Shown here in pieces: positions 1-44,285 of a stretch of 64,000 bases of DNA; the stretch's first letter is position 1; every line of letters starts with the position of its first letter. The notes under the pieces were generated by a model. That model did not search any database. It saw nothing but the letters and a program-made list of their open reading frames with translations, and was not told the origin of the DNA. The stretch lies in NCBI GenBank assembly GCA_023259035.1, contig JAHFRA010000003.1:1-64000 (forward strand). The letters run 5' to 3'. A program made the position numbers and the translations under genes. The stretch comes from Gallionella sp. (lineage in GTDB: Bacteria > Pseudomonadota > Gammaproteobacteria > Burkholderiales > Gallionellaceae).

Positions 1-64
1 CGATATCGAGGCGATTGAGCAGGTCCTGAATAAAACTTTTCGGAATCAAGCCCGCACCTTTCAT
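1..64 (-). CDS. dnaG: DNA primase, 5' end only (gene runs off the left edge)
   Basis: Reverse complement reads M-KGAGLIPKSFIQDLLNRLDI, matching the conserved DnaG N-terminus (IPxSFIQDLLxRxDI); sits after rpsU-yqeY as in the macromolecular synthesis operon. Confidence 0.8.
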   Translation of the reverse strand, partial: MKGAGLIPKSFIQDLLNRLDI

Positions 65-103
65 CTCTGCCGGCAATGCGCCGACGGAACGGTTAACCGG
101 GAA

Positions 104-3099: not shown

Positions 3100-3113
3100 A
3101 CACCACACAAATC

Positions 3114-3569
3114 ATGTTCGAAATACTGATGTACTTGTTTGAAAGTTACTTTGACGCGGGCAGCTATCCGGAGCCGGACAAGCTGTCGCGCAAACTCTCT
3201 GCCGCCGGCTTCGAAGGCGAAGAAATCAGCGAAGCGCTGACCTGGTTGTCCGCGCTGCAACAACAAAATCCCGATAATTACCCGGCCAGCCTCGAACATA
3301 CCGGACTGCGCCATTTTGCCGAACTGGAGCTGCAGCGCGTCAGTCTCGAAGCGCGCCAATTCTTGCTGTTCGCCGAACAACAACACATGATTTCCGCCGT
3401 CGAACGCGAGATCATTATCGACCGCGCCGTCGCGCTGCAACAGGAAAATCTCGGGCTGGACAAGCTCAAGCTGATCATGCTGATGGTGTTGTGGAATCGC
3501 CATCAGAATCTTGATCCGCTGTTGATCGAAGAATTGCTCTCCCCGTTACATTCCACGCAACTTCATTAA
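3114..3569 (+). CDS. smg: Smg family protein (DUF494)
   Basis: MFEILMYLFESYFDAGSYPEPDKLSRKLSAAGFEGEEI; located between dprA and topA. Confidence 0.92.
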   Translation: MFEILMYLFESYFDAGSYPEPDKLSRKLSAAGFEGEEISEALTWLSALQQQNPDNYPASLEHTGLRHFAELELQRVSLEARQFLLFAEQQHMISAVEREIIIDRAVALQQENLGLDKLKLIMLMVLWNRHQNLDPLLIEELLSPLHSTQLH

Positions 3570-3585
3570 ACCCCGATCCCCACGC

Positions 3586-6222
3586 ATGGCAACCAATCTT
3601 CTGATCGTCGAATCCCCGGCCAAGGCCAAGACCCTCAAAAAATATCTGGGCAAGGATTTTGAAGTCCTCGCTTCGTTCGGCCATGTGCGCGACCTGGTGC
3701 CCAAGACCGGCGCGGTCGATACCGAGAATGATTTTGCGATGCAGTACGAGACCATCGCGCGCAACAGCAAGCATGTCGATGCAATCGCGAAAGCCGCCGC
3801 GCTGGCCGACAACATCCTGCTGGCACCCGATCCGGATCGCGAAGGGGAGGCGATCGCCTGGCATATTTCCGAGTTGCTCAAGGCCAAGCGCGGCCTGAAG
3901 AACAAGAACATGCAACGCGTGGTGTTCTATGAAATCACCCAGACGGCGGTGCGCGAAGCGGTCGCTCACCCTCGCGAAATCTCCATGCCGCTGGTGAATG
4001 CGCAGCAGGCACGGCGCGCGCTGGACTATCTGGTCGGCTTCAACCTGTCGCCGCTGCTGTGGCGCAAGATCCGCCCCGGCCTGTCCGCAGGCCGTGTGCA
4101 AAGTCCCGCGCTGCGCATGATCGTCGAGCGCGAGCTGGAGATCGAGGCGTTCAAGACCCAGGAATACTGGACCGTGCACTTGGACAGTCACAAAAATCAC
4201 CAGCCGTTCAGCGCCAAGCTGTTCCAGTACCAGGGCAGGAAGCTCGAACAGCTCAGCATCGGCAGCCAGGCCGAATACGACGCGATTTTCGCCAAGCTCA
4301 ACGACGCCAAGCTGCCGCCCAAGGTGGTGCGCGTCGAAAAGAAAGCCAAGCAGCGCTATGCCGCCGCGCCGTTCACCACTTCCACGCTGCAACAGGAGGC
4401 GGTGCGCAAGCTCGGCATGACCGCCGACCGCACGATGCGCACCGCGCAGTCGCTGTATGAAGGCGTGGACATCGGCGGCCAAACGGTCGGCCTGATCTCC
4501 TACATGCGTACCGACTCGGTGTCGCTGGCCAAGGAAGCGGTGCAGGAAATCCGCGACTACATCAAGGATAATTTTTCGGCGGAATATCTGCCGTCCACGC
4601 AACCGGCCTACAAGAGCAAGACCAAGAACGCGCAGGAATCGCACGAGGCGATCCGCCCGACCTCGATCCTGCGCACGCCGGACAGCATCCGCGACCACCT
4701 GACCGCCGACCAGGCGCGCCTCTACGAGATGGTGTGGAAGCGCACGCTTGCGTGCCAGATGACTCCGGCGCGCTTCGACACCGTCAGCGTGGACATCCGC
4801 CTCGGCGGCGACACCACACTGTTCCGCGCTTCCGGCCAAGTGCTGGTGTTCCCCGGCTTCATCGGCGTATACATGGAAGACGTCGATGACGCAGAGGAAG
4901 AGGAAGGCGGCAAGCTGCCGCCGCTGGCCGAAGGCGATGTGCTACCGGTCGACAAACTGTACGGCGAACAGCACTTTACCCAGCCGCCGCCGCGCTTCTC
5001 AGAGGCCAGCCTGGTCAAGTCGCTGGAAGAGTACGGCATCGGCCGACCATCCACTTACGCGACCATCATCTCCACGCTGCAAGCCAGAGAATACGCGGTT
5101 CTGGACAAGAAACGCTTCGTCCCGACCGATGTCGGGCGCGTCGTCACGCGCTTCCTCACCGACCATTTCACCCGCTATGTCGATTACGGTTTCACCGCGC
5201 ACCTCGAAGACGAACTGGACGAAGTTTCCGAAGGCAAGCGCGACTGGATCGGCGTGATGGATGAATTCTGGAAAGGCTTCTCCGTGCTCATCAAGGAAAA
5301 AGCCAGCATCGACCGCCCAGTGGAATTGCTCGACGAAGCCTGCCCGGAATGCGGCAAACCGCTCGCCAAGAAGCTAAGCAAATACGGCAGCTTCATCAGT
5401 TGCACCGACTACCCCGAGTGCAAATACAAGCGCAGCCTGAACGGCGAATCGCAGGACGACGCCTCGGCCAGAGTCGAACTGGGCGAACACCCCGAAGCCA
5501 AACTGCCCGTGCTGCTGTTGCGCGGCCCGTACGGCCATTACGTGCAGCTCGGCGAAGCGTTCAAAGGCGAAAAAACCAAGCCCAAGCGCGTGTCATGGCC
5601 GAAAGAAATGCCCCTCGAACAGGCCGATCTGGCCAGCGCGCTGAAGCTGCTGTCGCTGCCGCGCGAACTCGGCGCACACCCCGAAACCGGCAAGAAAGTC
5701 ATCGTCAACATCGGTCGCTTCGGCCCCTATATCGGCCACGACGGCAAGTTCAAATCCATCCCGCGCAGCGACAGCATCTTCGACATCCGGCTGGATCGCG
5801 CGGCGGAACTGCTAGCGCAGGCGCGGGACGGCAACACCGTATTGCGCACCCTCGGCGACCACCCGGACGACAAGGCCAGCGTCGAGATATGCAGCGGCCG
5901 CTACGGCCCCTACGCGCGCCACGGCAAGATCAACGCCACGCTGCCGAAGGGCGTATCGCCGGATGAAATTACGCTGGAAGAAGCGCTGGAACTGATCTCC
6001 GCCAAGGCGGCGAAGGGCGGCACAGGGAAGGGCAAGGCGACAAGGAAACCTGCGGCTAAAGCGAAAACTGCTAAGCCCAAAGCGGCGGCGAAAAAGGCTG
6101 CGGTCAAGACTCCGGCAACCAAGGCGAAGACTGCTACGAAAGAGGTAAAGCCTGCGGTGAAGAAGGCAGCGGTAAAGAAACCTGCGGCGAAAAAACCAAT
6201 CAAGAGCAAAACCAAGCCGTAG
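3586..6222 (+). CDS. topA: DNA topoisomerase I with Lys/Ala-rich C-terminal tail
   Basis: MATNLLIVESPAKAKTLKKYLGKDFEVLASFGHVRDL, Toprim and Zn-finger CPECGKPL motifs. Confidence 0.97.
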   Translation: MATNLLIVESPAKAKTLKKYLGKDFEVLASFGHVRDLVPKTGAVDTENDFAMQYETIARNSKHVDAIAKAAALADNILLAPDPDREGEAIAWHISELLKAKRGLKNKNMQRVVFYEITQTAVREAVAHPREISMPLVNAQQARRALDYLVGFNLSPLLWRKIRPGLSAGRVQSPALRMIVERELEIEAFKTQEYWTVHLDSHKNHQPFSAKLFQYQGRKLEQLSIGSQAEYDAIFAKLNDAKLPPKVVRVEKKAKQRYAAAPFTTSTLQQEAVRKLGMTADRTMRTAQSLYEGVDIGGQTVGLISYMRTDSVSLAKEAVQEIRDYIKDNFSAEYLPSTQPAYKSKTKNAQESHEAIRPTSILRTPDSIRDHLTADQARLYEMVWKRTLACQMTPARFDTVSVDIRLGGDTTLFRASGQVLVFPGFIGVYMEDVDDAEEEEGGKLPPLAEGDVLPVDKLYGEQHFTQPPPRFSEASLVKSLEEYGIGRPSTYATIISTLQAREYAVLDKKRFVPTDVGRVVTRFLTDHFTRYVDYGFTAHLEDELDEVSEGKRDWIGVMDEFWKGFSVLIKEKASIDRPVELLDEACPECGKPLAKKLSKYGSFISCTDYPECKYKRSLNGESQDDASARVELGEHPEAKLPVLLLRGPYGHYVQLGEAFKGEKTKPKRVSWPKEMPLEQADLASALKLLSLPRELGAHPETGKKVIVNIGRFGPYIGHDGKFKSIPRSDSIFDIRLDRAAELLAQARDGNTVLRTLGDHPDDKASVEICSGRYGPYARHGKINATLPKGVSPDEITLEEALELISAKAAKGGTGKGKATRKPAAKAKTAKPKAAAKKAAVKTPATKAKTATKEVKPAVKKAAVKKPAAKKPIKSKTKP

Positions 6223-19919: not shown

Positions 19920-20774
19920 TTAGCGTTTTGTCTTGACATGCGCTTCCAGCTCTAGAAAGCCGGGACGTTCGGTTGAATTCAGCACCTTGCGCCCGAACTC
20001 AACGGCCATCGCCGGCGCATAGCCGTTAAGATTGGCCAACAGCGTTACCTTGATGGTCTGAAGCATCTTGCTGCCTTCCTCGGCTTTTTGTTCCAGCGTC
20101 GAAGCCAGCGGGCCGACGAACCCGTATGCCAGCAATATCCCGAGGAATGTGCCTACCAGAGCATGTGCGATCAGCATCCCCAATTCAGCGGGCGGAATGC
20201 CGACCGACTCCATGGTGTGCACCACGCCCATCACCGCAGCGACGATGCCGAAAGCCGGCATCCCGTCACCCAGCTTGGCAACCGCATGTGATGACACCAT
20301 TGCCTCGTGATGATGTGTTTCAATCTCCACATCCATCAGGTTCTCGATTTCCATCGCATTCAGGTTGCCGCTGACCATGATGCGCAAATAGTCGGTCATG
20401 AATTCGATCACATGATGATCCGAGGCTATTATCGGATATTTGGCGAAAATCGGGCTTTCCTCCGGCCTTTCCACGTCGCCCTCGATAGACATCAAACCTT
20501 CCTTGCGCACCTTGCCGAGCAACTCGTACAACAAGGCCATCAATTCCATGTAGGTGTTCTTGCTGTACTTGGAACCTTTCATAACCTTCGGCAAGTCTTT
20601 GAGTGTCGCCTTGATCACCTTGCCGGTATTGCCCACCAAAAAAGCGCCCGTCGCTGCACCACCGATCATCAACAATTCAATCGGCTGAAGCAATGCGGCC
20701 AAGTGTCCGCCAGCCATGGCAAAGCCGCCAAATACCGAAAAGCACACTGCCAAATAGCCAATGATGACTAACAT
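19920..20774 (-). CDS. motA: Flagellar motor stator protein MotA
   Basis: MLVIIGYLAVCFSVFGGFAMAGGHLAALLQPIELLMIGGAATGAFLVGN...GDGMPAFGIVAAVMGVVHTM. Confidence 0.96.
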   Translation of the reverse strand: MLVIIGYLAVCFSVFGGFAMAGGHLAALLQPIELLMIGGAATGAFLVGNTGKVIKATLKDLPKVMKGSKYSKNTYMELMALLYELLGKVRKEGLMSIEGDVERPEESPIFAKYPIIASDHHVIEFMTDYLRIMVSGNLNAMEIENLMDVEIETHHHEAMVSSHAVAKLGDGMPAFGIVAAVMGVVHTMESVGIPPAELGMLIAHALVGTFLGILLAYGFVGPLASTLEQKAEEGSKMLQTIKVTLLANLNGYAPAMAVEFGRKVLNSTERPGFLELEAHVKTKR

Positions 20775-23091: not shown

Positions 23092-24825
23092 ATGCGCATT
23101 CACATCCTCAAGCCTACTTTGCTATTTTGTATTTTTGCCATTGCTGTCCTCTGCTATACCCCCGGTCTGTCTGGGCACTTCGTTTTCGATGATAGTATCA
23201 ACATCAGCAAGAACCCCTACCTGAAAATTGTAACTCTGGATTTTGCTTCCCTCTGGCAGGCTGCCTCTTCGGGCAGTGCCGGCTTGTTGAAACGGCCAAT
23301 CAGCATGGTGAGCTTTGCCGTCAATTATTATGTTTCCGGCATGGATGCCTATTATTTCAAGCTGACCAATCTGGGGATACATTTAATTAACGGGATGCTG
23401 GTATTTATGCTGGCCAGGCTGTTGCTCGGTTTGCACCTGCGCGCCCATCGAGTGGCGGATGATAATGCTGCGGCATGGATTGCGGTTGCGGTTGCCGCGA
23501 TCTGGCTGTTGCATCCGTTCAATCTGACCGGCGTTCTTTATGTGGTGCAGCGCATGACCAGCCTTGCGGCATTATTCACACTGGCCGGATTGGTGCTGTA
23601 TCTGCATGGCAGGAAAAGTCTGCTCAATGGAAACAGGTCGGGGTTTATTGCGATTGCCGCAGCCCTATTTGTGGCCACGCCGCTTGCCGCGCTCAGCAAG
23701 GAAAATGGAGCCTTGCTGCCCTTGCTCATTTTTGCTGCCGAAGCGACTTTGCTGCGCTGGAACACGCCTGACCAGAGTACCCGCCGCATTCTTGTAACGA
23801 TTGTGGGTTTATCGGCGGCCATTCCGGTGCTGTTTGGCATATGCTACGTTTTGAATAATCCCGGTTTGATTTTGGGGGGCTATTTGGGGCGCAATTTTTC
23901 GCTGACAGAGCGATTGATGACCGAAGCGCGCGTGCTATGGTTTTACCTGCACATGATCGTGCTGCCCAGCATGGCCGAGATGGGTCTACATCATGACGAT
24001 ATTCTGATTTCGAAAAGTTTGCTTTCACCCTGGACAACGTTGCCTGCAATTATCGGGTTGCTATTACTCGCAGGTAGTGCATTCGCGTTGCGCAACAAAC
24101 AACCCCTGCTTACCTTCGGCATTGCGTTTTTCTTGATAAGCCACGCGCTGGAGTCCACGATCATCCCGCTGGAAATAGCTTTTGAACACCGCAACTATTT
24201 GCCGATGTTCGGTATCTTGTTACCGTTGACCTATTACGCGTTAAACCCCCGGCTGCATTTGCCCAGTGTGCGTTTTCGCCGGGCGGCCTTCCTGGTACTG
24301 GTCATTCTGTTCGCCGGTCTTACCGCATCCCGCGCCCAGCAGTGGGGAAATGCGCTCCAGATGCGCGTGCTGGAGGTGGAGCGGCATCCGCGCTCAGTAC
24401 GGGCGCATACCGATCTGGCCGGCCTTTACGATCATCTGCCACCGACCTCGCGTGAGGATGCGATTGATCTCTACAATAAGGCAATATTCCATTACCAGCA
24501 GGCCGCAGACATCGCACCTTCAAGCACCTCCGGGTTATTCGGTGTGCTGGTGGTGAATGCGGAAAGAGGCTTGCAAGCTGACGCGACATTGATTGAAACA
24601 CTGGAACACCGCCTTGCGACAACACCATTCGGCCCTCCCAACGTAAATTCTCTCGTCGGCACGGCAAGGTGTATTGCCAGCGGGGATTGCGCAGTCAATC
24701 CGGAAGTGGTTGACCGCCTTTATCGGGCCGCGTTGTCAAACACGACGCTCACTGGCGCTTACAGAAATTGGGTAATCTCGGAATTTGGTAAATTGCCGCC
24801 GAAAACTTGGCCCAAAGCCGAGTAG
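23092..24825 (+). CDS. Multi-TM protein with C-terminal TPR-like region, GT-C/TMTC-like; possible pilin glycosyltransferase
   Basis: CYTPGLSGHFVFDDSINISKNPYL...RPISMVSFAVNYYVSGMDAYYFKLTNLGIHLINGML (GT-C style first loop with acidic pair), many TM helices, TPR-like tail. Confidence 0.65.
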   Translation: MRIHILKPTLLFCIFAIAVLCYTPGLSGHFVFDDSINISKNPYLKIVTLDFASLWQAASSGSAGLLKRPISMVSFAVNYYVSGMDAYYFKLTNLGIHLINGMLVFMLARLLLGLHLRAHRVADDNAAAWIAVAVAAIWLLHPFNLTGVLYVVQRMTSLAALFTLAGLVLYLHGRKSLLNGNRSGFIAIAAALFVATPLAALSKENGALLPLLIFAAEATLLRWNTPDQSTRRILVTIVGLSAAIPVLFGICYVLNNPGLILGGYLGRNFSLTERLMTEARVLWFYLHMIVLPSMAEMGLHHDDILISKSLLSPWTTLPAIIGLLLLAGSAFALRNKQPLLTFGIAFFLISHALESTIIPLEIAFEHRNYLPMFGILLPLTYYALNPRLHLPSVRFRRAAFLVLVILFAGLTASRAQQWGNALQMRVLEVERHPRSVRAHTDLAGLYDHLPPTSREDAIDLYNKAIFHYQQAADIAPSSTSGLFGVLVVNAERGLQADATLIETLEHRLATTPFGPPNVNSLVGTARCIASGDCAVNPEVVDRLYRAALSNTTLTGAYRNWVISEFGKLPPKTWPKAE

Positions 24826-30384: not shown

Positions 30385-30719
30385 GGTAGGCCGAATAACG
30401 GGAAACACGCGGAGCCGGAGCGATTGCTGGGTAAGGATTATCCAGAGATAGATTGGGATTGTGGGCGAGGTAGATATTCAATTGCGTCTGCCAGCATGAC
30501 CGCGCAGAAATACAAATGCCAAGATTTCGCGTAACCGCTTTCATTCTCTGGTTATGCTTGACAGCTGCATGTTGCACCACCAATATTAAATCCACCATCT
30601 AAATTCATTTACAATAAGGCACGCTTCAAAGCTGAACCCGCCCATTATAACCATGATAAGCCGTTAAATTTAGTGCCATTTGGCATTGGTTTTTATCGCA
30701 AAATATTGGCCCTGCAAAA

Positions 30720-31922
30720 ATGAACTCACATCTGCGCACCCCACTTCAAGTTCATAAGAGTCAAGTTTATACCCGGAAGTGGGCACACTCTGAGAGTGAT
30801 ACGTTGGGGGTTAATTTAATTGGGCCAGTTGAATTCATTAATGGGCTCGGTACAAGCACACGCGGATATTTATTCAGTATCGCTAATGCAAATATTCAAC
30901 ACAATGTTGTTGCGTGGCACTATGGATTTGAACATTTGTCGAAAGTCGAGGTAGCCTATCCAAAACAAGATTTCTATTCGATCAACTTGGTGCATCTGAA
31001 CCTTGATTTGTTATCTCAAGGCTATCTCGATGCGGCGCCTCTAAACACAATTGTTACCCCAGAAAAATACAATATCTGTATTTTGTATTGGGAGTTGGCA
31101 TCGGTTCTTCCAGAATGGCACGATACCATGCGGATATTCGATGAGATTTGGTGCGCCAGTTCGTTTATGGCGCGAGCAATCAGCGCTGTGTCAGTTCGCC
31201 CAGTGAGAGTCATTCGGCCTGCCTTAGACTTTGCGAGTATTCCCAGCGGTAGGGATAGAAATAGCTTTGGGTTACCTTCCAGCTCTTTTGTTTTCTTCTA
31301 TGCTGCTGATGCGGGCGGAATAATGGGGAGAAAAAACCCCGGAGCTTTCATCAACGCTTATATTGAAGAATTTCCATTTGATGGTGAAACTTGCTGCCTT
31401 TTGAAAATAAATAACACGAAATTGGCACATCAGGAAATGCAACATATAGTCAACATTGCCAAAAGTAGACCTGATGTAATATTTTTTAACGAATTGCTAA
31501 GCTGCGAAGATATGTCCGCACTATTTCGCAGCATCGATTGCTACGTTTCGCCTCATCGTTCTGAGGGGCTTGGACTAACAATTCTTGAGGCTATGGCGGC
31601 CGAGAAACCCGTGATCGCCACACAATATGGAGGTGTAACAGATTTTGTCACTAAGGATACTGCTTACCCTATCAGCCATCGATTAATCGAGATTGGTTCT
31701 GGTAGCCCCCCATACCCAGCAGGCTATGTTTGGGCTGAACCCGATCTTTTGTCAATCCGCGAGAATATGCGTTATGTATTTGAGCACCAAGCAGAAGCAA
31801 AAATTGTAGGTCAAAAGGCAGCACATCATATTCGTGGTTTATTTTCATTGGAAGCAACATCAACCGTTTTGCAATCAGAATTAGAGCGCATTTGGCTTTG
31901 CGGAGAGACAGCGACTTTATGA
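30720..31922 (+). CDS. Glycosyltransferase family 1/4
   Basis: CYVSPHRSEGLGLTILEAMAAEKPVIATQYGGVTDFV. Confidence 0.9.
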   Translation: MNSHLRTPLQVHKSQVYTRKWAHSESDTLGVNLIGPVEFINGLGTSTRGYLFSIANANIQHNVVAWHYGFEHLSKVEVAYPKQDFYSINLVHLNLDLLSQGYLDAAPLNTIVTPEKYNICILYWELASVLPEWHDTMRIFDEIWCASSFMARAISAVSVRPVRVIRPALDFASIPSGRDRNSFGLPSSSFVFFYAADAGGIMGRKNPGAFINAYIEEFPFDGETCCLLKINNTKLAHQEMQHIVNIAKSRPDVIFFNELLSCEDMSALFRSIDCYVSPHRSEGLGLTILEAMAAEKPVIATQYGGVTDFVTKDTAYPISHRLIEIGSGSPPYPAGYVWAEPDLLSIRENMRYVFEHQAEAKIVGQKAAHHIRGLFSLEATSTVLQSELERIWLCGETATL

Positions 31923-33667
31923 AATTGCTGAAATATGCCCTTCTTTTTCTGGAGGTAACGAGAACGCGGGGAATATCCGAGGCGGCACGCCGTGCCAGGA
32001 ATGTAGCGCTCGGATCGTATTTTAGAGTGCTTTACAGTTTAAAAATGCGCGGCGCGTATTTGCCATGGCTAAGAAGACCAAGAAAAACTGGTAAGCCATT
32101 TACTGGTGAAACGAAGATCAGCATTCTAATGCCAGTCTATAACACTGATCCAAAAGTTCTTGCTGAAGCCATAGTATCCGTTCTTTCACAAACCTATCAA
32201 AACTGGGAGTTGTGTATTTGTGACGATTGTTCCACCAGCACAGGAACTCTCGAAATTCTTAGGCGCTATAAAGGCAATGACCCACGTATAAAAATCACCC
32301 GATCATCGTCCAATCTTCATATTTCCGGCGCAACGAATCTTGCCATGGAATTTGCGACAGGCGAATTCGTAGCCTTCCTGGATCACGATGACACACTTGA
32401 GCCAAATGCGATCGAGTGCGTGATTGAAGCGATCTGTCAGCATCCCAATGCCGATCTGCTTTATACGGACGAGGACAAAATCACGGCTAACGGCAGCCAT
32501 GTAGAACCAAATTACAAACCTGGTTGGTCACCGGAATATTTGCATGCAGTAATGTACCTCATGCATCTTTTTGTAATCCGAAAAAAATTGCTGCTGGAAT
32601 TAGGTGGGTTGCGCGAGCAGTTCAGTGGTGCACAAGATTATGATTTGGCGTTGCGCGCGTCAAAGAAGGCCCGGCATATTGTGCATATCCCAAAGATTCT
32701 GTATCACTGGAGAAAAGTATTAGGGTCTGCGGCTACTCATGTAAATGCGAAGCCACAAGCCCTTCTCAATGCACGTGCCACCCTGGAATGTGCTATTAAG
32801 GAATGCGATCCAGATGCTCGCATACTGGATGGATTGCTGCCCGGAACCTTTCGTGTGCAGTGGCCGATTCCTCAGGATGTTGTAGTAACCCTGCTGATAC
32901 CGACCAACGCCCAGCGTGCTGATGTTAAAGGCAGAGGAAATATTCTACTTATCAGGAATCTACTTGAAAGCGTGGTAAAAAAATCGACTTGGTTGAATTA
33001 CAAGATTCTGGTGATTGATAACCATAACCTTGCCACAGACGATTGCGCCTACATAGAAAGCCTTGGAGGCAGAGTTATTCATTATTCCTATGACGGCAAG
33101 TTCAATTTCTCAAAAAAAATGAATTTTGCTTTTAAACACATTGATACCGAACACGTAATCATTCTTAACGACGATACCGAAGTTATATCCAATGATTGGA
33201 TCGAAGCTCTTTTGTCATTTTCAACGCGTGAATCAATCGGTGCAGTCGGAGCAAAGCTTTTGTATCCAAACGACAGGATTCAGCATGCTGGCATACTGAT
33301 TAATGACGATGCCGAATGTGCTCATGCTTTTTACAACCTGAGTAGAAGTGAAGCCGAGTATTTTGGATACAGTTATTTCATTAGAAACTACCCCGCAGTT
33401 ACTGGCGCGGTCATGGCAACACGAATGAGTCTTGTTAAACTCATAGGCGGGTTTAGTGAAGAATTTGGAACGGACTACAACGACGTCGATTTTTGTCTGC
33501 GGCTTAGAGAGCTGGGCTTCAGGTCGGTATACACCCCTTTTGCCCAGCTCTACCACTTCGAAAACGCGACTATCAAAAGAACGGAAGCAGACACCTCAGA
33601 GAGCGCCCTGTTCAAGTCATTGTGGAAAGGGAAAGTATCTGCAGTTTTGGACTTTATACCTGGCTAA
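31919..33667 (+). CDS. Tandem-domain family 2 glycosyltransferase
   Basis: First GT2 KISILMPVYNTDPKVLAEAI...FLDHDDTLEP; second GT2-like module HVIILNDDTEVISNDWIEALL...DYNDVDFCLRLRELGFRSVYTPFAQLYHFE. Confidence 0.9.
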   Translation: MKLLKYALLFLEVTRTRGISEAARRARNVALGSYFRVLYSLKMRGAYLPWLRRPRKTGKPFTGETKISILMPVYNTDPKVLAEAIVSVLSQTYQNWELCICDDCSTSTGTLEILRRYKGNDPRIKITRSSSNLHISGATNLAMEFATGEFVAFLDHDDTLEPNAIECVIEAICQHPNADLLYTDEDKITANGSHVEPNYKPGWSPEYLHAVMYLMHLFVIRKKLLLELGGLREQFSGAQDYDLALRASKKARHIVHIPKILYHWRKVLGSAATHVNAKPQALLNARATLECAIKECDPDARILDGLLPGTFRVQWPIPQDVVVTLLIPTNAQRADVKGRGNILLIRNLLESVVKKSTWLNYKILVIDNHNLATDDCAYIESLGGRVIHYSYDGKFNFSKKMNFAFKHIDTEHVIILNDDTEVISNDWIEALLSFSTRESIGAVGAKLLYPNDRIQHAGILINDDAECAHAFYNLSRSEAEYFGYSYFIRNYPAVTGAVMATRMSLVKLIGGFSEEFGTDYNDVDFCLRLRELGFRSVYTPFAQLYHFENATIKRTEADTSESALFKSLWKGKVSAVLDFIPG

Positions 33668-35051
33668 TTTCAACTTCCGCTGCCGCCCCTTTGTTTATCC
33701 GTGTAGCGGGAAGATAGAGCTCCTCCACATAGCCTTTACGGGTCCAGTAAGGGCTACGGCTCACTCTATGCAGCAAGCGCTCGGACTTTACCAAATCACT
33801 TACGCATAACTGGGGAATATCTGGCCTGTCCGTGTTAGCTTGTCCCTCCTGATTGATGGACAGAAAGACACTGCCACGCCGTGCAATCTCTGTAATGTAT
33901 TCACGCGCCTGTTTTTCTGGAATTTCAGGTAAGCTGTCACGATTTACAATCAGATCATAATTTGAGCCGCACTTGAAGAATTCCCAGTAGGGAAGAAGCA
34001 TTATCGCCTGTCCGTTGTCAGGCTCGCCATACAAACGCACGAAATCAGACCCCAATACTTTCGACAAAAACCAACCTTGCACTACATTGACAACGGGCAG
34101 GTCGAAAATTGTGTAGTGAGCCGCACCAAAACGGATTGCCTGCAAGGCGGTTCCACCAAGGCCACCACCAATCTCAGCGAAATTAGACAGCCCAAATGCG
34201 GATGCAACCTCACAGATTCGCCAACTTGTGTACACGTCATCTGGAACGCGTACGTCAATTACTTGTCCGTTTACAAGAATACCAAATTCTCCCATCACTG
34301 GTGGTCGTCCAATGCGAACTCCAGTTATGGCTTCGATGCAATCAACCAATTCAGTCGCACTAATTGCGGCATTTTTGCCATAGTGGCCTTGTTCTGGGTT
34401 CTCATAAGGAAGCCCCGCAAGAGCCTCGGCCAGTGATGCTAGTCTATCGAGTAATATGAGAATGTTGGCTTCCTGGCCTTCCCTGTCCGCGCTCATCGCA
34501 TCGAAGACTTGCTTCCCAGGGCCAAGTCCATGCGTCAGTTTGGTGCGCATCGCGTTCTGCATATACACCGCCAAACTTTGGATATTCTGATCCGCCATCA
34601 AACGATACAGCTCGCCATGGTACTCATGTTTACACATCTCCCAAATACCTGAGTTTGGCCGATCTTCTAGCTCGACATATTTTGATTCGTCGCTTAGCAT
34701 TGCATTGAAGGAATTATGGAGGCGACGGGCGAGTTCGATGTCGTCTGGGGCTGCATCAGAGGGCTCAAGATACAGTTTCTCGCATATGCGAGGAGCATTG
34801 CTGTAATGCTGCAGAAGATGCCAAAGAGTGGCTCTGGGAAATTGGCACAAAGGGCTAGGGGCTGAGGTGAACGAAACGTCTTGCCCTGAAGCAGCAAACT
34901 TCTTTACACACTTTAGCCGTAAGAAAAATGGATGTCTTTTAAGGTTGTTATAGTACCTAAAAAACACAAACTTACTGCGATATAACGCCTCAGAAAGGCC
35001 TAGCTTACGTGTTACACCCACAAACCGAAGGGCATATTTCAATAAATTCAC
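33654..35051 (-). CDS. Putative sugar O-methyltransferase, paralog A
   Basis: SWRICEVASAFGLSNFAEIGGGLGGTALQAIRFGAAHYTIFDLPVVNVVQGWFLSKVLG...YDLIVNRDSLPEI. Confidence 0.78.
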   Translation of the reverse strand: MNLLKYALRFVGVTRKLGLSEALYRSKFVFFRYYNNLKRHPFFLRLKCVKKFAASGQDVSFTSAPSPLCQFPRATLWHLLQHYSNAPRICEKLYLEPSDAAPDDIELARRLHNSFNAMLSDESKYVELEDRPNSGIWEMCKHEYHGELYRLMADQNIQSLAVYMQNAMRTKLTHGLGPGKQVFDAMSADREGQEANILILLDRLASLAEALAGLPYENPEQGHYGKNAAISATELVDCIEAITGVRIGRPPVMGEFGILVNGQVIDVRVPDDVYTSWRICEVASAFGLSNFAEIGGGLGGTALQAIRFGAAHYTIFDLPVVNVVQGWFLSKVLGSDFVRLYGEPDNGQAIMLLPYWEFFKCGSNYDLIVNRDSLPEIPEKQAREYITEIARRGSVFLSINQEGQANTDRPDIPQLCVSDLVKSERLLHRVSRSPYWTRKGYVEELYLPATRINKGAAAEVEISQV

Positions 35052-35276
35052 TCATTTCCTCACAACAAATTCAAATACGTTAAAACCCCCCGACCAATCT
35101 TATCGCGATACAAAACTAGCCAGATCATACACAGGGAATTGCGTGTAATTAGCCACTTTCGTTAACAGTGGCAGCCACGAATCCGGAAAATATTAAAAAT
35201 CAATTCATTGAGATGCGCACTCAATTTTAGATATGCGACCCATATCCTTGCGTAACCCGAACTGTAACCCAATATC

Positions 35277-36236
35277 TCAGTTTGCTTTTGCGCTTTCTTC
35301 TTGAATCATCATCTGAATGACATCCCTCATTCTGGAGGATGCTCGCCATCCCAGCACTCTTTCAGCTTTATCGGCGCAACCCTGGCTCCAGAGTAAATCG
35401 GTCGGGCGGAATAGCGCGGGATTTGACACCACATGATCACGCCAGTCCAACCCTAAATTCTCAAAAGCACATTTCACAAACTCCTCCAACGAGTTCGCTT
35501 CACCCGTTGCAACAATGAAGTCATCCGCTTTCTCCTGCTGGAGTATTTTCCACATAGCCTCAACATACTCGGGCGCCCACCCCCAATCGCGCACAATATC
35601 TAACTTGCCGAGCTCCAGTTTTTCTTTCGAACCTTGCGCTATGCGACAAGCTGCTGAAATAATTTTTCGCGTCACGAAACGGGGCGGGCGCAACGGCGAT
35701 TCATGATTAAATAAAATCCCGTTACACGCAAACAAACCATACGCCTCACGGTAATTGGCCACCAGCCAGTGCGCCGATGCCTTGGCAATGCCGTAAGGGC
35801 TACGCGGGTGAAAAGGCACGCCTTCATTTGCGGCCATTACCCCCACATCACCAAAGCACTCACTGGAACCTGCGTGATACACCTTAATCGGTTTCTCAAG
35901 AAACCGCACCCCCTCAAGCAAATTTAACGTACCCTGGGTTATACTTTCCAGCGTTTCAACCGGCTGCTCAAATGAGAGGCCGACTGAGCTCTGTCCCGAA
36001 AGAAAATACACCTCATCGGGGTTGCTACGCTTCAAGGTAGTCAATACGCTTCTGAAATCATTCGATGCCATGGAAACCAAAGTCACCTGATCTCTGATCC
36101 CAAGTACTTTCAAATTGCTGAAAGTAGCTACTTGGGCATCACGGGACGTGCCCCATACTTCGTAACCCTTACACAGCAGCAACTGCGCAAGGTATGCACC
36201 ATCCTGTCCGCCCACGCCACAAATCAAAGCCCTCAT
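35277..36236 (-). CDS. GDP-mannose 4,6-dehydratase-like protein
   Basis: MRALICGVGGQDGAYLAQLLLCKGYEVWGTSRD...GSSECFGDV...RSPYGIAKASAHWLVANYREAYGLFACNGILFNHESPLR. Confidence 0.9.
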   Translation of the reverse strand: MRALICGVGGQDGAYLAQLLLCKGYEVWGTSRDAQVATFSNLKVLGIRDQVTLVSMASNDFRSVLTTLKRSNPDEVYFLSGQSSVGLSFEQPVETLESITQGTLNLLEGVRFLEKPIKVYHAGSSECFGDVGVMAANEGVPFHPRSPYGIAKASAHWLVANYREAYGLFACNGILFNHESPLRPPRFVTRKIISAACRIAQGSKEKLELGKLDIVRDWGWAPEYVEAMWKILQQEKADDFIVATGEANSLEEFVKCAFENLGLDWRDHVVSNPALFRPTDLLWSQGCADKAERVLGWRASSRMRDVIQMMIQEESAKAN

Positions 36237-36342
36237 TGATTTCTCCCTGAAATAAACTGTCGGCCCAAAAATTATCGGCTGATTCAATAATTATTCTCTG
36301 CATAGCAATACAAAGATACACTTAGATGTGTATTCATCTGTA

Positions 36343-37296
36343 TTACCCTTCTTGCTGGGCTATATTGGACTCATGCCCCCAGGCAATGCCCGACAAATAT
36401 TCTCGCCGCTCACTCGTGCCATTTTGATAATCACGGGTCTGATTATCCGCCACCAGCAAATTCTTCTGCTCGGATCGCCGAAAAGTACTACTTGTATTCC
36501 AGTTTTCCTTCTCGTAACTGCCCCCGTCCCGTCCAACCACAAGCACTTTCATTCTTTTGCGCATAATTTGCCTGGTCAATCCACTCCTCCCGCCCTCGAA
36601 TCTATAGGCGTCCATTTTATCTTTTATCACCGGACATTTAAGGCTACTCATAACCCGGGAGGAAATCATGAAGGCGTTTGTCCGCAAATGGTAATTCGGA
36701 AAAGGTTGAAAATAAATTAGAGACAATAAATAGTCTCCTAAATTATCCCAAAGACCCTCATCGACGGACCGGTAAAAATCCCGCGCAGCAGTACCGCCAA
36801 GAATCGCTCTTCTCCAGAAGGGCTTGTTTTTATATACGCCGTAATGCTGCTGAGCCACATCAAAAATATCTCTCAAAATGAACGACTCTAACCTATGACT
36901 TTCCCACGAGCCAGTGGCGCCCACCAAGCCGACTCCGGGACGAGAAATATGATGGTGAAGTTTACTTAACCAGCCAGAATCTAAAATCTCGCTGAATGAA
37001 TTCAGAAAACAAAAGTAGTTGTATTCGGCAGCATAGCGCTGGACAACGACGAAATAGGCGCTAATATCGAACCCCGCATCGGGCACGTCAAGAGAGTAAT
37101 GCTGAAATGGTGCCAGCACCTTTAAATATTCATCTTTTTCGGATGGCGATTCGAATCCTTTAAATACGATCAGAAGGTCGTGCTCCATCCCTCCTGGATG
37201 TGTCTGGTACGAGTCGAGGAAACGCTTTAAAGGCGCGATGCCGTTATGTGCACGAACCAAGTGGGCGACACAAAGTTCTTTCTGCGGCTGGATCAT
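36343..37296 (-). CDS. Uncharacterised polysaccharide-locus protein, possibly glycosyltransferase-related
   Basis: MIQPQKELCVAHLVRAHNGIAPLKRFLDSYQTHPGGMEHDLLIVFKGF...FDISAYFVVVQRYAAEYNYFCFLNSFSEIL. Confidence 0.6.
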   Translation of the reverse strand: MIQPQKELCVAHLVRAHNGIAPLKRFLDSYQTHPGGMEHDLLIVFKGFESPSEKDEYLKVLAPFQHYSLDVPDAGFDISAYFVVVQRYAAEYNYFCFLNSFSEILDSGWLSKLHHHISRPGVGLVGATGSWESHRLESFILRDIFDVAQQHYGVYKNKPFWRRAILGGTAARDFYRSVDEGLWDNLGDYLLSLIYFQPFPNYHLRTNAFMISSRVMSSLKCPVIKDKMDAYRFEGGRSGLTRQIMRKRMKVLVVGRDGGSYEKENWNTSSTFRRSEQKNLLVADNQTRDYQNGTSERREYLSGIAWGHESNIAQQEG

Positions 37297-37302
37297 GGAA
37301 AG

Positions 37303-38484
37303 TTAGTCAGTCGAACCCGTTAACGATTCTGGGGAAATCTGTTCGAAAACATCGAGTATCGTAAGAAAGCTCCCTTCCACTTTCTGCATGATAGGAGTGT
37401 CTGGATGCGAACGGGACTCCTCCAAGAATGTCTTGTACCGTTCTGGGGCCATTCTCTTGATGATGGAGAGCATAAAAGTGTAACGCAGCCATTCGTTAAA
37501 CCGCATTTTTTTTCGCAACTGCTGATAGGCTTTTCCTACGTTACTACCCGTGTGTAACCCATCATAAATAGCTAGTATCTGAATTAGCCGGTAACGATCG
37601 TAATTAACTCTAATATCCAGTTCGATGCCGAAGTTTACGGCAAGCGTTTCCATCGCAACCAGCCAGGATGTATTCATCGTGACACCCGGCAAAATCACCT
37701 CCTTCAACCGATTCACCATTTCCTTATCAGGAAGATTATTAAGAAATTCGTTTCCATGATTCTCTGCGTCATTGAAATAATAATAGCCGAATGATTTTGG
37801 GCTGATACCTATCGTTACCAGCGGCTGAGGCACAACAAGAATGCGTTCTGCCTTAAGCATCATGACATTGGAGGCATAATAATCGGGGTACGGAGACTGG
37901 TAGAACGGGCCATAGGGTTTTAGTTTTTCGATGAGCGCTCTGCTCACTAGGGAAAATTGCATGTTGTAATCGAATGTCACCCGGAAATTCAGCGAATCGT
38001 TGGCGAATTCCAGCGCTTTGCTTTTTTCAAGCCAGAACGGTTCTTGAGCGAATTGAAAAATCTTTCTGGTATCGTATGAAGCCAAACAGCCATCTGGTAC
38101 TCCTGGCATGACACCAGGATAGGCATACAAAAATGCACTGGTATAGATGAAATCTGGCGCATCGTATTTCTTGATCAAGCTGCTCAAGGTGGAAAAGTAG
38201 CCTTGCATCAGGCAGTCATCATCCCCCAACATAATGACGTAATCGCCATCGCTCTTGTCAATAGCGTTATTCCAGTTATCGGTAACTGGAACAAAGCGAC
38301 CAGTGCGGAAATACTTAATACGTATATCGCCAAGCGACTTAATATAGCCAGCAACATCCTCTTCTGAGAAATTATCGGAAACGATGATCTCCCAGTTGCC
38401 GTAGTCCTGACGACGCACTGTTTCAATTGCGTGAGAGAGCAGTTCAAGGCGATTACGCGTTGGCAACAATACCGAAAATTTCAT
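37303..38484 (-). CDS. Glycosyltransferase family 2
   Basis: KFSVLLPTRNRLELLSHAIETVRRQDYGNWEIIVSDNFSEEDV...VIMLGDDDCLMQGYF. Confidence 0.9.
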   Translation of the reverse strand: MKFSVLLPTRNRLELLSHAIETVRRQDYGNWEIIVSDNFSEEDVAGYIKSLGDIRIKYFRTGRFVPVTDNWNNAIDKSDGDYVIMLGDDDCLMQGYFSTLSSLIKKYDAPDFIYTSAFLYAYPGVMPGVPDGCLASYDTRKIFQFAQEPFWLEKSKALEFANDSLNFRVTFDYNMQFSLVSRALIEKLKPYGPFYQSPYPDYYASNVMMLKAERILVVPQPLVTIGISPKSFGYYYFNDAENHGNEFLNNLPDKEMVNRLKEVILPGVTMNTSWLVAMETLAVNFGIELDIRVNYDRYRLIQILAIYDGLHTGSNVGKAYQQLRKKMRFNEWLRYTFMLSIIKRMAPERYKTFLEESRSHPDTPIMQKVEGSFLTILDVFEQISPESLTGSTD

Positions 38485-39422
38485 AGCCAGTGATCCAGAT
38501 TCACGCCCAGCAGCTCCTGCAGTTTCAAAATATCCTCCCTGAAATTTCCACGCAGCCAGTCATATTGTTTGTTCGATAACCTATCACGCACACTGGTCTT
38601 CTTGTTGCACGGCAACCGGTTAATTATATTTAACCTGGCTTGCTGACCAAGACATTTCTCAATAAACTGAATAATGGAACGCGCAAATCCCAAACAAAAT
38701 ATTTGATACATATTGTGGCGCGTTCTTTCACTTCCAGCGTTGTGTCGTTCGGTCACACTAACGGGATAGGCCGGAACCCCAAGAAACTCAAAAAGCGATG
38801 CCACTACCGAGGCAGTTGAATTGGCAAACTCTTCAAAGAAAACAATCCGTATCCTGTCTTTGCCAAACAGCTCGATATACTCTTTAACCGCCTCAAAGTA
38901 CAACCCCCGTCGCACATGCCAGAATATAGGATCATAATGCTGTTCAATGCGATCAGTCTCAAGACACAATGACTCCCAAAAATTGTTATTTTGAAACTTT
39001 GCAGCGATTGAATGTTGATATTCCGAATACGCCCGGTCAACAGGATTGCGCAACATGATGATAATCTTGGCGGATGGATTCCATGCATGGATGCGGTTTG
39101 CGGCCTGCGGGCAAGACAGGTAGTCAGTAGATGCTTCGCCAGATATTGCACCTGCTGGAGCGTCCTGGAATAAGGCCAGATAATCAGCCTTTGTACTGAC
39201 AATCCCTGCATGAAAGTACTTCTTTCCAAATTCAAAAACATCCGTCGAGTACCCACAAAAAAACCTGGGCTCCTTGTTTTCCGGCATAAATATCTGCGGG
39301 TGCTGCTGTAGATACCGGTATAGCGAGGTCGTGCCCGCTTTAGGGGCACCAACTATCAAAAAGTGAGGCGGTATATTTACAATGGTTTCCTCACCTGCCC
39401 ATTGCTTTTCAAAGTTGTCCAT
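38481..39422 (-). CDS. Sulfotransferase domain protein
   Basis: HFLIVGAPKAGTTSLYRYLQQHPQIFMPENKEPRFF (5'-PSB loop) and IIIMLRNPVDRAYSEYQHSI (3'-PB motif). Confidence 0.93.
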   Translation of the reverse strand: MDNFEKQWAGEETIVNIPPHFLIVGAPKAGTTSLYRYLQQHPQIFMPENKEPRFFCGYSTDVFEFGKKYFHAGIVSTKADYLALFQDAPAGAISGEASTDYLSCPQAANRIHAWNPSAKIIIMLRNPVDRAYSEYQHSIAAKFQNNNFWESLCLETDRIEQHYDPIFWHVRRGLYFEAVKEYIELFGKDRIRIVFFEEFANSTASVVASLFEFLGVPAYPVSVTERHNAGSERTRHNMYQIFCLGFARSIIQFIEKCLGQQARLNIINRLPCNKKTSVRDRLSNKQYDWLRGNFREDILKLQELLGVNLDHWL

Positions 39423-39577: not shown

Positions 39578-40732
39578 TTACTTTAAAGAGCTGATCTTAA
39601 CAACCTCTTCCACATAGCCGCGGCGCATCCAGTAAAGCCCCCGGCTCACATCTAGATTTGGCATATCCTCTGCAATCAAATCCTGCACCCGGAATGGATT
39701 GGCTTCGTGGTTGATGGATAAAAAGATGTTCGTTGAAGCCTTGATCTTCTCCCAGTAGCCCTTGGCTATCAAGATATCCATCTCTGTCAGGCTGTCTACA
39801 TTGACAATCAGGTCGTACTTTTTATCCTCATCCAGAAACGTCTGCGGCATGCATATCTTGATCTTCTGCGACGACCCGGCACTTGACTCTCCATCCAGGC
39901 AAACCTGTTCTTCGCCCAACGTACGACCCAGAAAGTAGGCTTGAGCCGTCGCCGTCATCGGGATATCTACTATCGTATAGTCCTTTATTCCCAACTCGTG
40001 TGCGTAATAGGCCGTACGCCCCAATCCGGCACCGATTTCCAGAACGCGCGGGTGCTCGATCCCTTTGACCAGCTGCTTGATGCGCCATGCCTGATACAGC
40101 GCCTGCGGCACCCGATAAGACACGACACCACGAGAAGTACGCAGGCCGAACTCATCCGGAAACGGATTCGGCACAGTGAATGCCCAGCAGGCCTGGCTTA
40201 ACTTTGCCAGTATGGCCTCCGCATCATAAGGCACCCCTTCAACCGCCGACCACGTCTCCGTGTTGTCCAGCGGAATAGCACCCACCGCTTCGGCAAACCG
40301 CACCAGACCATCCAGACACAGCTTGGCATATGCCTCACGAACATCAGTTTGCTCAAACTCCTTCGGGCACGATTTTCTAAGCATATCAAAGCCATGAAAT
40401 AAATCGTTTGTGCCTGGATAGCGGTAAATCTCGGCAATGCGCTTTTCATCGCCTGCCATCAGTGCATCATGAATCGGCTCGTGATGGGAATTAAAAAAGT
40501 GTTTCCACATCGACTCCCCGAGATCAGATTTATTGGCGCTCTGGTACGCTACGGTGAAACGCCGGATCAATTCCGAATCTATTGCCTCATGAGGCTCGAC
40601 TACAGCTGCTGCAAGTGCCATCAACAAATTCTCGCGGTGAAACATCAGCCCTCGCGAACGCTCTTTCCCCGATGTCCCTGAATTGGGCTTATTGACCCAA
40701 CTCCTTGCCATTCTTGCCAGGCTTGTTTTCAT
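39578..40732 (-). CDS. Putative sugar O-methyltransferase, paralog B
   Basis: AWRIKQLVKGIEHPRVLEIGAGLGRTAYYAHELGIKDYTIVDIPMTATAQAYFLGRTLG...YDLIVNVDSLTEM. Confidence 0.8.
   Translation of the reverse strand: MKTSLARMARSWVNKPNSGTSGKERSRGLMFHRENLLMALAAAVVEPHEAIDSELIRRFTVAYQSANKSDLGESMWKHFFNSHHEPIHDALMAGDEKRIAEIYRYPGTNDLFHGFDMLRKSCPKEFEQTDVREAYAKLCLDGLVRFAEAVGAIPLDNTETWSAVEGVPYDAEAILAKLSQACWAFTVPNPFPDEFGLRTSRGVVSYRVPQALYQAWRIKQLVKGIEHPRVLEIGAGLGRTAYYAHELGIKDYTIVDIPMTATAQAYFLGRTLGEEQVCLDGESSAGSSQKIKICMPQTFLDEDKKYDLIVNVDSLTEMDILIAKGYWEKIKASTNIFLSINHEANPFRVQDLIAEDMPNLDVSRGLYWMRRGYVEEVVKISSLK
39602..40347. repeat. 746-nt direct repeat, copy 1 (3' part of paralog B)
   Basis: Constant offset of 1219 nt to copy 2 from AACCTCTTCCACATAGCC to GAACATCAG; shadow ORFs in other frames also identical. 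Confidence 0.9.
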
Positions 40733-40805
40733 ACAACAATCTTCCTTGTCATATTCACCCTATAACTTTTGGAACAACAGTTGTTGTCAATTACTTGTGC
40801 ATGTC

Positions 40806-42002
40806 CTACTTGGCTTCTATAACCTCTTCCACATAGCCGCGGCGCATCCAGTAAAGCCCCCGGCTCACATCTAGATTTGGCATATCCTCTGCAATCAAAT
40901 CCTGCACCCGGAATGGATTGGCTTCGTGGTTGATGGATAAAAAGATGTTCGTTGAAGCCTTGATCTTCTCCCAGTAGCCCTTGGCTATCAAGATATCCAT
41001 CTCTGTCAGGCTGTCTACATTGACAATCAGGTCGTACTTTTTATCCTCATCCAGAAACGTCTGCGGCATGCATATCTTGATCTTCTGCGACGACCCGGCA
41101 CTTGACTCTCCATCCAGGCAAACCTGTTCTTCGCCCAACGTACGACCCAGAAAGTAGGCTTGAGCCGTCGCCGTCATCGGGATATCTACTATCGTATAGT
41201 CCTTTATTCCCAACTCGTGTGCGTAATAGGCCGTACGCCCCAATCCGGCACCGATTTCCAGAACGCGCGGGTGCTCGATCCCTTTGACCAGCTGCTTGAT
41301 GCGCCATGCCTGATACAGCGCCTGCGGCACCCGATAAGACACGACACCACGAGAAGTACGCAGGCCGAACTCATCCGGAAACGGATTCGGCACAGTGAAT
41401 GCCCAGCAGGCCTGGCTTAACTTTGCCAGTATGGCCTCCGCATCATAAGGCACCCCTTCAACCGCCGACCACGTCTCCGTGTTGTCCAGCGGAATAGCAC
41501 CCACCGCTTCGGCAAACCGCACCAGACCATCCAGACACAGCTTGGCATATGCCTCACGAACATCAGGCTGTTCAAACTCCCGCTGGCAGGCTCGTCTTAA
41601 AAAATCGTAGCCGAAAAACAGCTCGCTATTGCCTGGATTATGGTAAAGCTCGGTAATACGTTTTATATTGCCGACCATCAAGGTATCGTGCGCTTGCTGG
41701 TTTAAACCGGATATTGTCTTCCACATGGAGTCGCCAAGATCGGCCTTATTTGCTCTGTGGTAGAAATCAATGATTCGCTCAATCAATGGGGTGTCAATGA
41801 TATGATGGTCATCAATGGACACTGAGGCGGAAATGGCAGATGACAAGGAAATATTACGATGAATAACGCGAGCCATTGCCACACCACCAATTGGAGAGTT
41901 GGGCGGCGATGGCATTGTCATCACCGAATCGTCCGCATGGATCAAAAGCCTGATTCTCACTGCCAGTCGCCCTGCCAATCTTTTCAAACTTTCAATTATC
42001 AT
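40806..42002 (-). CDS. Putative sugar O-methyltransferase, paralog C
   Basis: C-terminal approx. 250 aa identical to paralog B; N-terminal third divergent but homologous. Confidence 0.8.
   Translation of the reverse strand: MIIESLKRLAGRLAVRIRLLIHADDSVMTMPSPPNSPIGGVAMARVIHRNISLSSAISASVSIDDHHIIDTPLIERIIDFYHRANKADLGDSMWKTISGLNQQAHDTLMVGNIKRITELYHNPGNSELFFGYDFLRRACQREFEQPDVREAYAKLCLDGLVRFAEAVGAIPLDNTETWSAVEGVPYDAEAILAKLSQACWAFTVPNPFPDEFGLRTSRGVVSYRVPQALYQAWRIKQLVKGIEHPRVLEIGAGLGRTAYYAHELGIKDYTIVDIPMTATAQAYFLGRTLGEEQVCLDGESSAGSSQKIKICMPQTFLDEDKKYDLIVNVDSLTEMDILIAKGYWEKIKASTNIFLSINHEANPFRVQDLIAEDMPNLDVSRGLYWMRRGYVEEVIEAK
40821..41566. repeat. 746-nt direct repeat, copy 2 (3' part of paralog C)
   Basis: See copy 1 (39602-40347). 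Confidence 0.9.
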
Positions 42003-42005
42003 TTT

Positions 42006-43286
42006 TTAGCCTAATTTCTCGACATCCCAATCAAGAACAGGTCGCACAGCACCGGGAAAATCATTCATTGGCATTCCTCTCGTACGAGTAGGTACGTCAA
42101 TTAATGGATCGATCACATCAAACGAGCAAGCGCTATGTTCGTGAAAGTGCAGTATTTTTGTGGGTTCATAGGAGACTAAGCCGAATCCAATAAAATATGT
42201 CACCTGATTGAGAAAGTTTGCCGGCACACGGCATATCGCCTTGTACTTTCCCGGCTTGTACCTTTGCATCTTTGCAGCCGCAAACGAGACGAATGCATAG
42301 CGACCGCCATCCATCATAAAGTCGAGCCTCGGCAACAACTCGCGCTCTGAGTCTTGCAACACCTCAAACGTAACTGCAACACGCACTTCCTGATTGATAA
42401 TAATTTGAGTCACTGCCACACCACTGGGATCCAGGATAGAAACCGATAATAATTGGGCATATTCATCGCCAATTTTTCTGCTCTGAAAGTTAATCTCAGC
42501 CCCGCTATCACCCTTGGTGTAGAAACTTACGACGTCACTGGCGGCACCAGCCTTTACCACCTGCCCTGCATCCAGCAAAATAGCCTTTGTGCACAAGGAT
42601 GACACCATAGGCAGGCTGTGACTGACGAAAAGCACGGTTCGTCCGTCTGCTCCCACCTCTTCCATTTTCCCCAAGCATTTCTTCTGAAACTGCGCATCGC
42701 CCACCGCTAGCACTTCGTCGATAATCATGATGTCGGGTTCCAGGTGTGCGGCGACGGCAAATGCGAGCCGAACGTACATGCCGCTGGAATAGCGCTTGAC
42801 CGGTGTATCGAGAAATCTTTCCACTTCGGCAAAAGCGATGATTTTATCGAATTTTTTCTTGATGTCTGCCTTGCTCATGCCGAGGATCGCGCCGTTGAGA
42901 TAAATATTCTCGCGTCCGGTAAGTTCGGGATGAAAGCCTGTGCCAACTTCCAGCAGACTGGCAACACGTCCCCTGATCGAGACTTTGCCTGATGTTGGCT
43001 CGGTAATGCGGCTCAGGATTTTCAGCAAGGTAGATTTGCCAGCGCCATTGCGCCCGATGATTCCTACCCGGTCGCCTTGTTGTATATCAAAGCTGACATC
43101 CTTGAGTGCCCAGAATTCTTCGTGGGCCGGGTCATCTTTTGCTTTTGAGAAGGGGTGCGCCAGTTTCTTCAGGGAACGACTGACACCCTGTGCAATTACG
43201 TCATGAAGATTAGTATAAAGTTCCTGTCTTTGATGGCCGATGAGGTACTTTTTCGAAAGATTCTCGACAAGAATAACAGAGGCCAT
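42006..43286 (-). CDS. wzt: Polysaccharide ABC transporter ATP-binding protein with C-terminal Wzt-like carbohydrate-binding domain
   Basis: Walker A GIIGRNGAGKSTLLKIL, signature YSSGMYVRLAFAVAAHLEPDIMIIDEVLAVGD, about 180-aa C-terminal extension. Confidence 0.93.
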   Translation of the reverse strand: MASVILVENLSKKYLIGHQRQELYTNLHDVIAQGVSRSLKKLAHPFSKAKDDPAHEEFWALKDVSFDIQQGDRVGIIGRNGAGKSTLLKILSRITEPTSGKVSIRGRVASLLEVGTGFHPELTGRENIYLNGAILGMSKADIKKKFDKIIAFAEVERFLDTPVKRYSSGMYVRLAFAVAAHLEPDIMIIDEVLAVGDAQFQKKCLGKMEEVGADGRTVLFVSHSLPMVSSLCTKAILLDAGQVVKAGAASDVVSFYTKGDSGAEINFQSRKIGDEYAQLLSVSILDPSGVAVTQIIINQEVRVAVTFEVLQDSERELLPRLDFMMDGGRYAFVSFAAAKMQRYKPGKYKAICRVPANFLNQVTYFIGFGLVSYEPTKILHFHEHSACSFDVIDPLIDVPTRTRGMPMNDFPGAVRPVLDWDVEKLG

Positions 43287-43288
43287 AA

Positions 43289-44119
43289 CTAAATTATGTC
43301 CGTAAAGGTTTTTTCCGTTTTACGGAAATAAGCTATCCCGGTGAACAGCATCACCATAACCAGAATCAGGGAGAGCAAAAAACCAGGCCAGTAAAGCTGA
43401 GCATTGCCCCCCAGTATTGCCCAGCGGAAACCATCAATTACACCCACCATCGGATTCAAGGAATAGAGCAGTCGCCATTGTTCAGGGACGATAGCGCTGC
43501 TAAATCCAACCGGTGAAATATATAACCCAAGCTGTACCACGATTGGGACGATGATTCGAAAATCGCGGTATTTAACGTTTAGTGCCGCGATCCATAGCCC
43601 TGCACCCATGGCGGCGGCAAAGGCCACAAAAATAAATAAGGGTAAAGTAAATATTCGCAGGTTTGGCGCAAAGCCATACCAGGCCATTAACCCCACCAGA
43701 ATCAACCCGGAAATAAGAAAGTCCACGAAGCTGACGATCACCGCGCTGGCAGGGATAACCAGACGCGAAAAATACACCTTCGAAATCACCCCGGCATTGC
43801 TGATCAGGCTGTCTCCGGCACCGCTAAAACCACTGGAGAAAAATTGCCAGGGCAAAAGCGCCGCAAAAACCAGGATCGGATAGGGCACTCCTTCGGAAGG
43901 TAATTTTGCAAGCTTGCTGAAAACCAGTGTAAACACCAACATGGTAATTAATGGACGCCCCAATGCCCACACAATACCAATGGTTGTTTGCTTGTAGCGC
44001 ACCAGAATATCGCGCCAAGCCAAAAAGAAGAGTAGTTCGCGGAAGCCCCAAAGGTCACGCCAATAGTGCCGCTCAGACCGACCTGACTCAATTATCAACA
44101 CCTGTTGTGTTGCACTCAT
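43289..44119 (-). CDS. wzm: Polysaccharide ABC transporter permease
   Basis: DLWGFRELLFFLAWRDILVRYKQTTIGIVWALGRPLITMLVFTLVFSKLAKLPSEGVPYPILVFAALLPW. Confidence 0.94.
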   Translation of the reverse strand: MSATQQVLIIESGRSERHYWRDLWGFRELLFFLAWRDILVRYKQTTIGIVWALGRPLITMLVFTLVFSKLAKLPSEGVPYPILVFAALLPWQFFSSGFSGAGDSLISNAGVISKVYFSRLVIPASAVIVSFVDFLISGLILVGLMAWYGFAPNLRIFTLPLFIFVAFAAAMGAGLWIAALNVKYRDFRIIVPIVVQLGLYISPVGFSSAIVPEQWRLLYSLNPMVGVIDGFRWAILGGNAQLYWPGFLLSLILVMVMLFTGIAYFRKTEKTFTDII

Positions 44120-44285
44120 TTGCTTCCGCTTTCTTTCATAGCCTTTTCCATATAACGTTTTCGTTGATTGATTTTGTGGCGATTGCAATCAACTTGCTCC
44201 GTTTGAATTGCACTGTAATTCTGTATTTCTACTCTCATACCTATGGAAGCGCCGATTTATTCGATCGCGTAGTAAACGCACTGTT

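Follow-up and report, generated by a model that had tools for sequence, protein, structure and literature searches.

Two adjacent genes for putative sugar O-methyltransferases in Gallionella sp., here termed MTa and MTb, are exactly identical over the 3' two-thirds of both and are anciently diverged over their 5' parts. The reading that best accounts for this contrast, at a probability of roughly 75%, is ectopic gene conversion of the C-terminal part, with a tract of at least 746 nt, between old tandem paralogues. Both genes lie in the window analysed here, meaning the whole 64,000-nt stretch of contig JAHFRA010000003.1. Below, we discuss the anatomy of the pair, the age of its two parts and the alternatives to conversion.

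Two methyltransferase genes and their locus

The features of the pair are as follows.

40806..42002, minus strand: MTa, the upstream putative sugar O-methyltransferase, 398 aa (open reading frame; TIGR04371, 54.3 bits)
41567..42002, minus strand: divergent 5' part of MTa (49% amino acid identity with the MTb N-part over the region that aligns)
40821..41566, minus strand: identical 746-nt tract in MTa (exact match to the MTb tract)
40733..40805, minus strand: intergenic spacer of the pair, which does not resemble the sequence downstream of MTb (sequence comparison)
39578..40732, minus strand: MTb, the downstream putative sugar O-methyltransferase, 384 aa (open reading frame; TIGR04371, 54.4 bits; structure model)
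40348..40732, minus strand: divergent 5' part of MTb, a predicted N-terminal helical region (alignment and structure model)
39602..40347, minus strand: identical 746-nt tract in MTb (exact match to the MTa tract)

Both reading frames are intact. Both proteins score ~54 bits against TIGR04371 (methyltran_NanM, putative sugar O-methyltransferase), above its curated threshold of 44 bits, with an alignment that covers the Rossmann part only (profile positions 131-266 of 273). An invariant E232-x-G234-x-G236-x-G238 motif marks a class I SAM-methyltransferase core. A profile search for the family gave no match among PDB sequences, and a literature search for TIGR04371 returned nothing on the family in the library covered. 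Sugar methylation by these putative enzymes is read from the family name and the locus only. The AlphaFold2 model of MTb (13 sequences, mean pLDDT 82.6, pTM 0.85) places N-terminal helices at residues 53-66, 75-83, 85-93 and 96-104, followed by a helix at 129-149 and the Rossmann core. Foldseek searches with this model retrieve class I methyltransferases that match over the core only, with a TM-score to the query of ~0.3.

Positions 39602-40347 equal positions 40821-41566 exactly and without gaps at an offset of 1219, bounded by mismatches at 39601 and 40348. As the genes lie on the minus strand, the shared 3' segment occupies the lower coordinates of each. Within MTb the tract comprises codons 130-377 and two bases of codon 129; residue 129 is the first difference, a threonine in MTb and a proline in MTa. 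The sequence GAACATCAG sits at this junction. At the same offset, 11-14 of every 20 positions are identical per block over ~120 nt above 40347, while below 39602 identity is immediately at background level. The N-parts contain no exact in-register run of 10 nt or more. Chance identity can be rejected, as 746 identical sites would have a probability of ~10^-160 at the flanking identity. No third copy of the tract occurs in the 2.88-Mb assembly, and the presence of only two copies, adjacent to each other, favours local recombination.

The first-pass annotation had described two adjacent sugar O-methyltransferases with an apparently identical 746-nt segment at offset 1219 and only moderate similarity upstream of the junction, which share a Rossmann half but differ in their N-terminal parts. 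Each of these points is borne out: the enzyme assignment, although putative, by the profile scores, the upstream similarity by a nucleotide identity of 0.609, and the two-part anatomy by the position of the junction. In the MTb model, codon 129 falls at the start of the predicted helix 129-149, which suggests that the divergent part is a structural unit and that MTa and MTb join different predicted N-terminal helical regions to the same Rossmann core. A role for the N-part in specifying the acceptor is plausible and compatible with this predicted modular split. It is probable that each of the two putative enzymes adds its methyl group to a different position or residue of the exported glycan.

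The pair is set in a polysaccharide locus, flanked by genes for an ABC polysaccharide exporter on one side and for a sulfotransferase on the other, and MTa starts a few nucleotides past the Wzt-like gene.

43289..44188, minus strand: Wzm-like permease (ABC-2; profile matches)
42006..43286, minus strand: Wzt-like ATPase of a polysaccharide ABC exporter (Wzt_C match below its cut-off)
38481..39422, minus strand: sulfotransferase, which also follows the methyltransferase C-part in a same-genus relative
37303-38484, downstream of MTb: family-2 glycosyltransferase
36343-37296, downstream of MTb: a further gene
35277-36287, downstream of MTb: GDP-mannose-dehydratase-like gene
33654..35051, minus strand: third, distant methyltransferase paralogue (~35% identity in the C-part)

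Wzt recognises a terminal methyl group on some O-antigens that leave the cell through ABC exporters; that such recognition might apply at this locus is only a thought, by analogy. Separately, a block of ~5.9 kb (30409-36342) separates two blocks that abut each other in the same-genus relative (3036-4957 of its contig). It contains the genes at 30720-31922 and 31892-33667, the third methyltransferase and the gene at 35277-36287, and is either an insertion here or a deletion in the relative.

An old pair with a recent identity

The two parts of the pair differ sharply in apparent age. Over the 247 codons of the C-part, dN and dS between MTa and MTb are both zero, with an upper 95% limit on divergence of ~0.004 differences per site. 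The alignable N-part (MTb residues 53-128) is 49% identical in amino acids, with a dN of 0.39 and a saturated dS of ~4. Two homologues provide a scale, one in a betaproteobacterial metagenome-assembled genome (MAG; L008) and one in a Chitinivibrionales MAG (L009). The MTb N-part is 53% identical to L008 and 50% to L009, and the MTa N-part 44% and 40%, so that MTa has the more divergent of the two N-parts, as it does against every homologue; the C-parts of MTa and MTb are equally distant from both (66-67%). Since the N-parts of MTa and MTb are about as diverged from each other as MTb is from homologues of other phyla, the paralogues are old, and their identity arose recently. The N-part separation would approach the age of the split between MTb, L008 and L009 unless MTa evolved fast; a later duplication followed by fast evolution of MTa is a less likely alternative to an old pair. 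In the N-part tree MTa and MTb group together with support of 68/64, and the alternative is not rejected (p-AU 0.21); the N- and C-part trees have too few sites and too long branches to place MTa.

A closer yardstick is a same-genus relative (L012 in genome G032; JACREA010000221.1, a Nitrosomonadales MAG), in which the gene order is conserved from the methyltransferase C-part through the sulfotransferase to the two genes beyond it. Its shared part is 84% identical to that of the pair, with a dS of 0.64. Set against a dS of 0 between the two copies, this indicates that their identity is far younger than the split from the relative. The relative's contig ends (positions 1-707) inside the methyltransferase gene, ~20 residues within the shared part. 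The missing gene half was not found in that assembly, where the contig end is also unrepeated. A second methyltransferase copy in that genome is possible, the contig end being perhaps an unresolved repeat. No relative carrying both genes complete was found and this one is cut off inside the gene, so the unconverted state is unseen.

Gene conversion and its alternatives

The mechanism we favour starts from two old tandem paralogues, putative sugar O-methyltransferases for an ABC-exported surface polysaccharide. RecA-type homologous recombination between these neighbours would recently have overwritten the 3' two-thirds of one gene with those of the other. The tract has one end within coding sequence that is still homologous, where the predicted helix 129-149 starts, and its other end 4-7 codons ahead of the stop codons, where the homology of MTa and MTb stops. 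Both enzymes would come out intact, with a single SAM-binding catalytic core in common but N-terminal helical regions of their own. The pair displays two hallmarks of conversion, namely an identical, bounded tract beside a flank that is diverged yet homologous and in register, and paralogues that are older than the tract, as judged by saturated N-part dS and a divergence similar to that from other lineages. A transfer from MTb to MTa is slightly favoured, as the MTb N-part is closer to single-gene homologues.

The first-pass annotation had proposed either recent conversion or partial duplication; the dS contrast sustains the former, and the latter is less likely. In a partial duplication, a fresh MTb C-part would have been joined to a divergent N-terminal fragment, a relic or an import, making MTa the new chimera. 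Such a fusion would give the same end product, and it fits with the greater divergence of the MTa N-part from every homologue. However, this N-part is homologous to that of MTb, in register and in frame across a gap-free junction. The final codons and the stop of MTa are, moreover, its own, a feature that a complete older gene would show. Homologous in-register N-parts, complete reading frames and old divergence together indicate that the pair is older than the tract, which leaves partial duplication unlikely. Strong purifying selection alone might also keep the catalytic parts identical in the absence of exchange, and within the family the C-part is indeed better conserved than the N-part (66% versus 53% identity to L008). 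This explanation is refuted by the synonymous identity: protein-level selection cannot yield a dS of 0 between copies against 0.64 to the same-genus relative, and its probability is negligible.

Another concern, raised in part by the first-pass annotation as an assembly artefact, is that the copies are similar rather than identical, or that more than two units exist, and that a short-read assembler collapsed sparse differences or arrived at the wrong number of copies. Window positions 1-120, the start of the contig, match the terminal 120 bases of contig C31 exactly (its positions 20607-20726 of 20726), and C31 is probably the adjoining contig. An exact 120-nt overlap of contig ends points to a short-read de Bruijn assembly, the genome being a short-read MAG. 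The 746-nt repeat exceeds the k-mers of such an assembly and would have been crossed by graph resolution, with no spanning read; the contig of the same-genus relative also ends within the methyltransferase gene. The caveat therefore stands in part, as the assembly could hide a small number of merged SNPs, or copies of the 1219-nt unit beyond the two seen. Differences of ordinary density, such as the 16% between MTb and the relative, would nevertheless have assembled apart, and only sparse ones could be concealed. Furthermore, four distinct junctions make the contig's order the only apparent linear path. We regard an assembly effect as quite improbable.

Base composition of the shared tract

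GC content at third codon positions (GC3) is 0.63 in the shared tract but 0.51 in one N-part and 0.52 in the other; neighbouring genes in 248-codon windows average 0.51 +/- 0.04 with a maximum of 0.58. Among third-position differences between the tract and the same-genus relative, GC is favoured in this genome 37 to 16, in contrast to 462 to 526 for eight neighbouring genes summed (Fisher p 0.001, in a comparison chosen after the GC3 step was seen). The gene at 23092-24825, unlike its neighbours, is shifted towards AT (65 to 107, p 0.002). As this opposite shift is just as strong and the comparison is post hoc, the GC3 excess is only a hint of repeated GC-biased conversion. A broader scheme can be drawn in which MTa and MTb form a module that is homogenised time and again: repeated GC-biased conversion would keep the core common, selection would keep the two N-terminal acceptor regions distinct, and the repeats would switch polysaccharide methylation by loss or amplification of the 1219-nt unit. 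We consider this scheme doubtful.

Parallels and significance

Ectopic gene conversion and concerted evolution are established for prokaryotic paralogues such as tuf and mtrA, the latter with fusion and domain shuffling (PMC6053082). As in those genes, paralogues within one genome are here far more alike than orthologues, synonymous sites included. Unlike them, MTa and MTb are homogenised in the 3' two-thirds only, form a pair of tailoring enzymes and come from a single genome. A second parallel is provided by the Campylobacter jejuni MeOPN transferases Cj1421 and Cj1422, adjacent capsule-modifying paralogues with GalfNAc and heptose as acceptors (PMC3907429). MTa and MTb are likewise adjacent tailoring enzymes in a polysaccharide locus. 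Cj1421 and Cj1422 have one near-identical half in common and are divergent in the other part. They belong to another enzyme family, however, and have phase-variable polyG tracts, and for MTa and MTb a difference in acceptor is only presumed. The process is already known, and the example is new.

The geometry of the 746-nt direct repeat predicts that renewed exchange could either remove the 1219-nt unit, with one MTa gene left behind, or amplify it. If confirmed, the pair would be a natural domain swap in one operon, in an uncharacterised family, in which an N-terminal role in acceptor choice is directly testable. It would also illustrate how direct repeats in polysaccharide loci make surface chemistry evolvable.

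Distribution of the family

Family members occur in 3 of the 76 genomes of the genus. No further tandem pairs appear in the order, class and phylum samples (369-399 genomes each), which lend no support to a general occurrence of the arrangement. A mobile-element or phage origin shows no sign: two plasmid matches (29-35%) are distant, as are five viral-contig homologues (28-44%), none of them in tandem. On the viral contig IMGVR_UViG_3300044736_000100 (L051, 4271-6963), a 44% methyltransferase homologue adjoins an acyltransferase-like open reading frame and, from a reading by eye, lies near lysozyme-like and tail-like frames, perhaps belonging to a phage that modifies a surface sugar of its host.
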